Shown here: positions 1-29,045 of the stretch, in pieces | Layout: each line of letters opens with the position of its first letter | Position numbering within the stretch: the stretch's first letter is position 1 | Source of the DNA: Candidatus Doudnabacteria bacterium CG10_big_fil_rev_8_21_14_0_10_41_10 | Lineage (GTDB): Bacteria; Patescibacteriota; Doudnabacteria; UBA920; 2-01-FULL-50-11 | Direction of reading: 5' to 3' | DNA length: 38,630 nucleotides | NCBI GenBank assembly: GCA_002773695.1 | Contig: PFAJ01000064.1 | Coordinates: 2,017 to 40,646, forward strand | Notes under the pieces: generated by a model | What the model was told of the DNA's origin: nothing | Databases searched by the model: none | Seen by the model: only the letters and a program-made list of their open reading frames with translations | Position numbers and translations under genes: made by a program

Positions 1-1917
1 ATCGGAAGAAGTAGTTGAATTTTTTCCAACAGTGACGATGTATGATGACGGTGAAGGATAAACTATTAGATTATTTGTAGTCGTTGCCCAAAAGCCGCCG
101 CCAGCCCCGCCGGCCGGCCAATTGGTTCGGCAAACACCTCCAATACAAAATATCGGCGCGTTAAACGCCGTGGCGGAAGTAACATCGCCCGTAAAATATC
201 CCGATCCGACAACTGTCAAAGTTTCGCCGTAAGTTCCGCCCGGAGTAGAAGTCGCAACGCCAACACGCCGGTTGTTATTGTCTACAAACAAATTTACATT
301 ACTGTTAAAATCTTGAACTGTAAGATTTCCTGTAATAGTTGAGCTCGCGTTTGCAAGGGATCCTGATAAAACCAAATCTCCGCCGACTGTCAAATCATCG
401 GTTACATACAAACTTGAAGAAGTTGTCGCGTTTACCAAAGTTGTTCCGCCAGCAACGGTTAGATCTCCGGCAAGCGAGGCGCCCTGCAAAGAAGTTGCCC
501 CGGTAATCTGCAGGCTTTCCGAAACAAAAGTACTTGCCGAAAGATAAGTAAATGCCGCGGCGGTGCCAGCTTGGTTTTTAGAATCCTCCGCTACATAAAA
601 AACAGATGAGCTGTCCGAACTTCCGGAGGATCCTGTCGCGCCCATTGCTCCGGTTTCTCCCCTTTCACCATTTTCTCCTCTTGGCCCCGGAACTCCTTGC
701 GGCCCGGCGGGTCCCTGCGGTCCTCTGGCGCCGGCTGTCCCCGGAACATAAACCGTTTTTACACTGTCATCCTCGCGAACGCGGGGATCGGAGTCTGGAT
801 CCTCAATCAATTTGGTAATGACTTTTGTGCTATCCGAAATTTTTGTGTCGTTACCGTCGTAGTCTCTCGGCACATTTACCAAGACATCCGGCGGAAGCGG
901 TGTTGTTATGGAATTGTAAAAATGTTTTAATGACCCTATAATTTTTTGCCAAACGCCGGTCTCTTGTTCTGGCTCCACCGAGACTGAACCGGCAATCATT
1001 TTTCCCTCTCCCCAAGTCTGGGAAGAAACACTGTTTTGGGGCTCTGTTGCCGCTGGCAACATTCCATATTGAAATTCTTCTTGTTTGTCGGCTGGTTCTG
1101 GAACCAAACCGGAAATTGCTTTGTCACCGGCATATTCCAAAACCTTGATCGCCAGTACCGCGGAATTATTTATTTCGTGAACAACAGACAATGGAGAAGC
1201 AAGCGCCATTGCTAAAATTAAAACCACGGCCGCGGGGGCGGTGATCATCCGATCGCGGTACCATGGCGTGTTGGCGATATAGTTTGGTAATTTTTTATTT
1301 GGCAGTCGCGCCGGCGCGTCGCCGAGGCTGAAACCTAGTTTTGAAAGATCATGGCGCGGGTCGGAATGTTTTGTTTGCTTTCGAGAAAATATCGTCTTAT
1401 ATTTTTCTGCGAGGGTTTTTACACCGCGGGAAAACCCTCCCTTCTCCCCCTTATGAGGGCGAGATTTAGAGAGTGCTATAGAAGCCGTATTTTTCCCGAC
1501 TCTCTCAATACCTTTTTTGTCATCCCCGACTTGTTCGGGGATCCAGGCCTGGATTCCTCCGCCTGGGCGGACGGGGATTACATTTTCTTTTTGTTTTATT
1601 TCATCCTCGACGACTTGATCAATCTCTTCTCTTGATTCTGCCTTCAAAATTTCTTCAAGGTTATCAATCCCTGATTCGAAAATTTGATTGTTCAAAATCT
1701 CTTCTTGCGCTTCTAGTTTTACAGGCTTGCCGACAATCCCCAAAACTTTTTGATAATCCGCGATAGCGGAGTCGCAAGTCAACCAAATTCTCCCTTGTCT
1801 TTGAGACCACAAAAAACTTTCCCTGCAAAGATAGGCAAGGTGATCCGATGTGTACCCGAATTTCTTCCGGGCCTCGGTTAGTGTTATCAATTTTTCATTT
1901 TCGTATCGAGAAGGCAT
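1..1917 (-). CDS. Surface protein (C-terminus beyond window): N-terminal HTH-like segment, one TM helix, collagen-like Gly-X-Y stretch, repetitive extracellular part
   Basis: Manual translation from ATG (complement 1915-1917) is open to base 1. N-term MPSRYENEKLITLTEARKKFGYTSDHLAYLCRESFLWSQRQGRIWLTC; TM APAAVVLILAMALASPLSVV; collagen-like GTAGARGPQGPAGPQGVPGPRGENGERGETGAMGATGSSG. Absent from the ORF track, probably because its stop lies outside the window. Confidence 0.85.
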   Translation of the reverse strand, partial: MPSRYENEKLITLTEARKKFGYTSDHLAYLCRESFLWSQRQGRIWLTCDSAIADYQKVLGIVGKPVKLEAQEEILNNQIFESGIDNLEEILKAESREEIDQVVEDEIKQKENVIPVRPGGGIQAWIPEQVGDDKKGIERVGKNTASIALSKSRPHKGEKGGFSRGVKTLAEKYKTIFSRKQTKHSDPRHDLSKLGFSLGDAPARLPNKKLPNYIANTPWYRDRMITAPAAVVLILAMALASPLSVVHEINNSAVLAIKVLEYAGDKAISGLVPEPADKQEEFQYGMLPAATEPQNSVSSQTWGEGKMIAGSVSVEPEQETGVWQKIIGSLKHFYNSITTPLPPDVLVNVPRDYDGNDTKISDSTKVITKLIEDPDSDPRVREDDSVKTVYVPGTAGARGPQGPAGPQGVPGPRGENGERGETGAMGATGSSGSSDSSSVFYVAEDSKNQAGTAAAFTYLSASTFVSESLQITGATSLQGASLAGDLTVAGGTTLVNATTSSSLYVTDDLTVGGDLVLSGSLANASSTITGNLTVQDFNSNVNLFVDNNNRRVGVATSTPGGTYGETLTVVGSGYFTGDVTSATAFNAPIFCIGGVCRTNWPAGGAGGGFWATTTNNLIVYPSPSSYIVTVGKNSTTSSD

Positions 1918-5221: not shown

Positions 5222-5351
5222 TGTTCTCGCGAAAGCGGGGGTCTAGGTTTATTGTTCGAGCGACCTGCCCGCCATTCGCCTTCGGCAATGCCGATGGCAG
5301 GCGGGAGTCGAGAACCTGGATTCCTCCGCCTAGGCGGATGGGAATGACAGA
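5222..5351. repeat. Composite dispersed repeat with a second palindromic repeat nested inside
   Basis: Outer TTCTCGCGAAAGCGGGGGTCTAGG...CCTGGATTCCTCCGCCTAGGCGGATGGGAATGACA; inner GTTCGAGCGACCTGCCCGCC...GGCGGGAGTCGAGAAC. Confidence 0.75.
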
Positions 5352-13112: not shown

Positions 13113-13343
13113 TTGAATTCTTCCCCTCCTTATGCTGAATATCCGCTTCTATCTCTCTTGTTATTCCCGTCCGCCAACCACGGCCGGCCGAAAAATCTAG
13201 GATCTGTATCCCCGATCGAGTCGGGGATGACAAAAGTAAATTCCCTATTCTTTCCTTTCATTCCCGCGAAAGCGAAAATCTAAAGGTTTCAATTTATTCC
13301 CCTCTCCCCTTGCGGAAGATGAAAATTTAATCCCCAAACTACA

Positions 13344-28058: not shown

Positions 28059-29045
28059 ATGACTATTCAAAAAGTATTAACTTGGGCTACTGAAATACTA
28101 AAAAAAACCTCGACTTCCCCTTCTTTGGACGCGGAGGTTCTTTTGTATTATACGCTTAAAAAACCGAAGGAGTTTATCCTGACAAACCAGTCCAAAAAGC
28201 TAACGAGCAAACAACTTAACAAGTTTAAAAATCTGATTGAAAAACGATCAATTGGAATTCCGGTTGCCTATTTGACTGGCCACAAAGAATTTTACGGTCT
28301 CGATTTCATGGTAAATAAACAGGTCCTAATCCCCCGCCCGGAAACAGAAGAGCTCGTTCAGCTAACGCTGAACAGAATTATGAATTATGAATTAGGAATT
28401 AGGAATGTTGTCGATATTGGGACTGGCTCGGGAAATATAATTACCTCTATCGCTGTTTTTTTGGGACTCCCGAGGGGAGGCGAAATAATCCCAAACCCTA
28501 ATAAATTGCTTCCCGCCTCGACTCGTCGTCTTCGGCAAGGCGGGCGTCGCTACGCTCCTCGCAATGACATTTCTTTCTATGGAACCGACCTCTCAAAAAA
28601 AGCTTTACAAATTGCCCGTAAAAATGCTCGTAGACATGGGGTTAAAATTAAATTTCTTAAAGGCAATCTCCTGGATCCTCTCTTTAATCTCCCTTTCATA
28701 AGGGAGAAAAAGAGTGCGGATCATAGCTGGATTGTTCTCGCGAATTTGCCTTATATTGAGAAGGTTCCCTTCTCGCCGAGAAGGGAACCTTCTCCGGATC
28801 AAACCGGTCTGCGCTTCGAACCGAAACAAGCTTTATTTACAACTGAAAAAGGGCTCAAACAAATCCGCTTACTGCTTAAACAAATCGGAAAACTTAAACA
28901 CCTCCCAAAAATCATTTTGTTAGAGTTCGACCCTCGGCAAAAAACCAGCCTTAAAAAGCTGGTAAATTTAAATTTACCCACAGCCAAAATCACTTTTTTC
29001 AAGGACCTTTCCGGTAAATGGAGTTTTGTTGAAATTTCAATTTGA
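28059..29045 (+). CDS. prmC: Release factor glutamine methyltransferase, with in-frame repeat insertions
   Basis: PVAYLTGHKEFYGLDFMVNKQVLIPRPETEELVQ; VVDIGTGSGNI; WIVLANLPYIEK; RFEPKQALFTTEKGLKQI. Confidence 0.92.
   Translation: MTIQKVLTWATEILKKTSTSPSLDAEVLLYYTLKKPKEFILTNQSKKLTSKQLNKFKNLIEKRSIGIPVAYLTGHKEFYGLDFMVNKQVLIPRPETEELVQLTLNRIMNYELGIRNVVDIGTGSGNIITSIAVFLGLPRGGEIIPNPNKLLPASTRRLRQGGRRYAPRNDISFYGTDLSKKALQIARKNARRHGVKIKFLKGNLLDPLFNLPFIREKKSADHSWIVLANLPYIEKVPFSPRREPSPDQTGLRFEPKQALFTTEKGLKQIRLLLKQIGKLKHLPKIILLEFDPRQKTSLKKLVNLNLPTAKITFFKDLSGKWSFVEISI
28758..28794. repeat. 37-bp perfect palindrome within prmC
   Basis: GAGAAGGTTCCCTTCTC-gcc-GAGAAGGGAACCTTCTC. Confidence 0.95.

Follow-up and report, generated by a model that had tools for sequence, protein, structure and literature searches.

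TGTC-tagged palindromic repeats lie in frame within a collagen-like surface-protein gene of a Candidatus Doudnabacteria bacterium

Introduction

How does a surface-protein gene come to hold copies of a hairpin repeat that is mostly found between genes, and has the protein taken them into use? The question is raised by one end of the window analyzed here, the whole stretch of 38,630 nucleotides at C45:2017-40646 in the draft assembly of a 1.08-Mb genome, whose nearest named relatives are the Candidatus Doudnabacteria genomes MFEO01 and JACQJK01 of the same family. A sequence-only reading of this DNA had described two repeat-like segments inside the open reading frame and, together with prmC, took them as a sign that repeats are domesticated into proteins genome-wide.

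In-frame palindromes are classically known from Rickettsia (PMC10969869). In the part of that review that deals with Ogata et al. (2000), the Rickettsia palindromic elements are selfish DNA found in frame in many unrelated genes; the elements described are about 150 bp long. The same 2024 review treats such a route from palindrome to protein in other prokaryotes as conceivable only (PMC10969869). A second group is the super-family of CGTC-tagged REPs, which includes RPE-4 and RPE-6 of Rickettsia and dRS3 of Neisseria (Di Nocera et al. 2013; PMC3733652).

Results

Both segments carry the repeat; copy A spans exactly 765-804 and copy B 1518-1582 (Table 1), and copy B indeed matches the intergenic copies that had been named for comparison: identity is 74% over 77 nt with 13159-13235, the copy near 13200, and 89% over 35 nt with 5315-5349, in the copy at 5222-5349. 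Copy A is 81% identical over 37 nt to another intergenic copy (L070). The repeat unit consists of a TGTC tag, an 8-bp stem starting with AT, a loop of 4 to 6 nt, and a CCAG tail; units measure about 29 nt and paired units about 65 nt. A longer stem (TCCGCC..GGCGGA) or a 6-nt loop occurs in some units. Copy A and the first unit of copy B have the TGTC tag and the AT-starting 8-bp stem, with loops of 4 and 5 nt, respectively (6 nt in some relatives), and the second unit of copy B is a longer-stem variant with the tag TGTA. Both copy B units end in CCAG, whereas copy A has CGGA in place of CCA. Copy B is a pair of inverted units, a heterodimer with the tags out and the tails in, and copy A is one unit whose partner is truncated; judging by its sequence and by the comparable copy between genes in L070, the stretch 793-804 is probably what remains of that second, inverted unit.

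Table 1. Positions of the repeat copies and related features in the window
Feature	Position	Strand	Description
Host ORF	1..1917	-	Conserved N-terminal segment (shared with two related genomes); long repetitive C-terminal part
Copy A	765..792	+	One hairpin unit with TGTC tag; stem of 8 bp, loop of 4 nt, tail altered
Partner remnant next to copy A	793..804	-	Probable second, inverted unit, CTGGATCC..
Copy B, first unit	1518..1547	+	TGTCATCCCCGACTTGTTCGGGGATCCAGG; 40.9-bit covariance-model score; strict motif
Copy B, second unit	1548..1582	-	Inverted, longer-stem type, TGTAATCCCCGTCCGCCCAGGCGGAGGAATCCAGG
Surface-protein peptide across repeat			KENVIPVRPGGGIQAWIPEQVGDDKK
Local inverted repeat	1411..1438	.	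GAGGGTTTT..AAAACCCTC
Intergenic relative	5222..5349	.	Degenerate left unit, other repeat inserted, intact right unit 5316-5349
Intergenic dimer, family of copies A and B	13159..13232	.	Contains minus-strand unit 13204-13232
prmC	28059-29045	+	In-frame segments of repeat families other than the TGTC-tagged one

The family was defined by a strict motif, TGTCAT[CT]C with a perfect 8-bp stem starting at AT and a loop of 4 to 6 nt. In the 895 of 1,081 kb (about 83% of the genome) covered by our genome-wide counts, 26 units fit this motif, copy A and the first unit of copy B among them; ten second-order Markov shuffles gave 0, and permuted tags gave 0 or 1. The repeat thus occurs throughout the genome and is more than a likeness of short GC-rich words. 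Across the order, the pattern TGTCATYCC..GGRATCYAG was found in 24 of 49 genomes, and a reversed control pattern in none. A covariance model built from 56 units, all from other genomes of the order, recovered copy B with 40.9 bits (E ~1e-9). Copy A, with its altered CCAG tail, stayed below the threshold of this model, and its identification therefore rests on the strict motif and the 81% match. In the units of other genomes, 98.8% of the stem cells were paired and 69 two-sided changes were counted, compared to 21 expected from shuffles; as the search pattern fixed part of the stems, this covariation bears solely on alignment columns 7 and 10-12 and their partners.

A hairpin that had been noted near 1415-1445 is present as well, at 1411-1438. 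Its arms do not occur a second time as a pair in the sequence searched, and we therefore rejected it as a copy of a dispersed repeat.

The minus-strand frame of the host gene is uninterrupted through both copies, as had been stated, and reads copy A as DPDSDPRVREDDS (encoding ..DPRVREDDS) and copy B as NVIPVRPGGGIQAWIPEQVGDDKK. The open frame has 1,318 codons and extends past the ends of both the window and the contig; the protein comprises at least 1,311 residues. Its N-terminus, which shares 55 to 63% identity with proteins from two related genomes, is followed by a hydrophobic, putatively transmembrane segment and then by a collagen-like GXY stretch, and Pfam Collagen (PF01391) matches with an E value of 6.9e-7, above the Pfam cut-off. 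The codon-usage score of the ORF is positive. A first scan of the genome contigs with the query P0001 found no relative, and a scan with the conserved N-terminus added, within the lineage, no genome to the two whose match was known before.

A protein alignment had been suggested as a check, and it was informative for linker length. By the match coordinates, the linker between the conserved blocks has 88 residues here and 68 in genome G001; the excess of about 20 is close to the 24 residues encoded by copy B and is consistent with its insertion. The exact junction could not be placed, the closest orthologues (in G001 and G002) being too divergent in the linker. No orthologue aligns across copy A, and no target-site duplication was established. 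In a collagen-like protein of another genome (L097, G007), a repeat-like peptide, LPLTLPSPARGEGEE, lies directly before the GXY stretch, at a position similar to that of copy A.

Among the 54 REP units in the 895 kb, 42 are intergenic, 4 lie at gene edges, and 8 lie within called ORFs. Two of these eight fall in doubtful small ORFs and six in three secure genes: three in the surface-protein gene (copies A and B), a dimer in the gene of DinB, and one in that of ValRS. With 78% of the sequence coding, the depletion within genes has a binomial P of ~1e-22; the gene calls come from a home-made caller, which may misjudge small and edge genes. Eight intergenic dimers of TGTC-tagged units were listed. 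With only 8 of 54 units in ORFs, avoidance is the genome-wide rule and in-frame copies are rare, tolerated survivors; the idea that these repeats are frequent in genes throughout the genome was accordingly rejected. Frames are open through 49 of 84 single units (58%) and 13 of 48 intergenic dimers (27%), and the in-frame copies that have been retained fit such survivorship.

The same family is found in frame in two conserved enzymes, both encoded by real genes with orthologues that do without the insert. DinB contains a TGTC dimer: the sister genome G001 runs SIDEAFLDVTNLIGAGEYPW, and this genome has 25 more residues, dimer included (SIDEAFLDVTNLIGAGEYPWSTALLYALEIKQRI in G001 versus SIDEAFLDFGIKTKILKDTCHPGLDPGSTRARKDPDCNQDDSTIWSDAILVALEIKQRI here). 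Many DinB orthologues break the alignment at the position of the dimer. In ValRS, the linker that precedes the anticodon-binding domain holds one unit, read as FDSRLRGNN, which is missing from most orthologues. Across the ValRS loci of the order (L180-L203), this linker is an insertion hot spot that unrelated palindromes have hit time and again: G026 carries a TGTC dimer, G043 a pair tagged TGTC, G031 a pair tagged GTAG (CTGTAGGGACAGG..CCTACA), and G019 and G003 carry palindromes of other kinds.

Repeats of other families behave similarly. A screen of the genes against intergenic DNA, combined with Pfam naming, revealed in-frame repeat-matching segments in UvrD, Fpg, AsnB, RluD, TsaD, MiaA, and PurH. 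For UvrD, AsnB, MiaA, PurH, and PrmC the names come from Pfam alone, and the first four probably carry such repeats in frame. Orthologue comparison covered Fpg, TsaD, and RluD; here orthologues without the segments exist, and some relatives have different inserts at the same loops. With DinB and ValRS, the alignments show orthologues lacking the insert for five genes, and about ten genes besides the surface-protein gene have similar in-frame insertions. The parallel drawn with prmC stands insofar as the gene contains in-frame repeats, ASTRRLRQGGRRYAPRNDI (~28510-28572) and EKVPFSPRREPS (~28752-28803), but their families differ from that of copies A and B. The second PrmC palindrome, GAGAAGGTTCCCTTCTC, recurs within the DinB reading frame of the present genome, again in frame.

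The Fpg insert (L214; L045:2009-3055) comprises 44 residues, and its flanks are exactly contiguous in G001. It is common to this genome and to G003, which belongs to another genus, and has persisted since before the two genera split. Changes at codon positions 1, 2, and 3 number 9, 11, and 17 in the 44 codons of the insert, compared to 50, 28, and 108 in the flanks, which scarcely suggests that selection acts on the peptide. Unrelated palindromes have hit this loop, too, more than once within the order.

Discussion

Copies A and B are REP-type palindromes of the CGTC/TGTC-tagged kind that were, with high probability, inserted into linkers of the surface protein and tolerated in frame. In our model, the hairpin element would be copied or moved into the gene by some enzyme. 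Most insertions would break genes and be lost, some would land in frame, and those in loops could persist. Copies A and B would have persisted because the frame is kept, no stop lies in it, and the site tolerates extra residues. The inserts are found in variable loops and linkers and look tolerated rather than used, and the encoded peptides may be neutral.

The alternative that survives best, with a small probability, is the domestication proposed by the sequence-only reading, i.e., that the repeat-coded peptides are kept by selection for a role as spacer, in binding, or as a regulatory mRNA hairpin. A role would suit the Fpg insert, which belongs to another repeat type and is shared by two genera in frame and without indels, and it would suit the repeated strikes on the same loops. 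However, the third-position excess in the Fpg insert is just mild beside that of its flanks, inserts at one site differ between genomes, and most orthologues have none. There is no sign of a gained function, and we do not retain the term. What does hold of the genome-wide claim is recurrence, in DinB, ValRS, Fpg, TsaD, RluD, PrmC, and others, even though units are depleted from genes.

That the host ORF stays open through the repeats by luck, as a pseudogene or through faulty annotation, is very unlikely. The ORF is repetitive, has a collagen-like domain as its sole recognized domain, and runs past the contig end; yet the length of the open frame, the N-terminus conserved in two genomes, the Pfam match, and the codon usage all speak for a genuine gene. 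Chance likeness of short GC-rich words might be imagined for copy A, which is short, altered in its tail, and missed by the covariance model, but it is hardly credible given the strict-motif counts in shuffled genomes and with permuted tags, and for copy B it is already refuted by a model made without this genome.

Insertion of a palindrome, the reading we favor, has precedents. The CGTC-tagged REPs have TGTC tag variants, 8- to 9-bp stems starting with AT, 4- to 5-nt loops, and CCA tails, and form inverted dimers; they are mostly intergenic, but some are in frame, often in DNA repair or RNA-modification genes; the copies within genes encode 20 to 30 residues, and double insertions in one ORF have been described (PMC3733652). 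A dedicated transposase is not known (PMC3733652). Copy A and the first unit of copy B share the unpaired TGTC tag, the stem, and the loop size, and the copy B units, though not copy A, share the CCA tail; furthermore, inverted dimers are frequent, units are mainly intergenic, and no transposase is flanked by them. Differences are the patescibacterial host and the longer stem or 6-nt loop of some units. By sequence, the Doudnabacteria units have the anatomy of the TGTC variant, an assignment at the level of the super-family and not to CGTC-1 to -4. Like the Rickettsia elements, they are palindromic DNA retained in frame within unrelated genes, but the units are about 29 nt rather than about 150 bp long, and several unrelated families occur in the same genes.

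The phenomenon as such is known from Rickettsia and from REP repeats, and what is new is the lineage: in the open-access literature we found no earlier report and no relevant paper on REP or palindromic repeats in Patescibacteria/CPR, and a search by the letters of the repeat returned unrelated papers alone. With modest confidence, we propose that in Doudnabacteria unrelated palindrome families (TGTC-tagged, GTAG-tagged, and others) landed in frame, repeatedly and independently, in the same loops of housekeeping enzymes (ValRS, Fpg, RluD). Next to Rickettsia and REP-rich Proteobacteria, the lineage would then be another major bacterial setting where selfish hairpins regularly supply new protein segments. 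It offers a tractable data set: the genomes are small, the repeat families several, and essential enzymes occur with or without an insert at a given loop, one insert being shared across genera. For annotators it holds a warning: such peptides in patescibacterial proteins are repeat derived and not conserved domains.

A further comparison is with the GTAG-tagged REPs and their RAYT (Y1) transposases, since tagged hairpins and three Y1_Tnp genes are present in this genome. Unlike those REPs, the units of the copy A/B family are tagged TGTC and do not flank Y1 genes: none lies beside two of the three, and the third is about 470 bp from the dinB dimer and not flanked. The Y1/RAYT gene directly upstream of the dimer-bearing dinB (L123; G000:C61) has an in-frame TAA. 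Since the hairpin in front of it, tgtaATGGAGGCCTTTAGGCCTCCAT, is of another kind, this gene was set aside as the mover of the TGTC units.

Two other features lie near the host gene. At ~1950-2200 on the minus strand, a GIY-YIG-like frame, MFYVYIIKLKRDKGLYFGSTNDLRRRLVEHTKSKGDLDLIYY, has one in-frame TAG and then continues as AYRSEADARRREHNLKYFGKTYGQLKGRIEES. Inside another dispersed repeat, 27-bp units (AGCCGAGTCGAGAAGTCGCAGATTTCG) are arrayed in tandem at 2674-2808.
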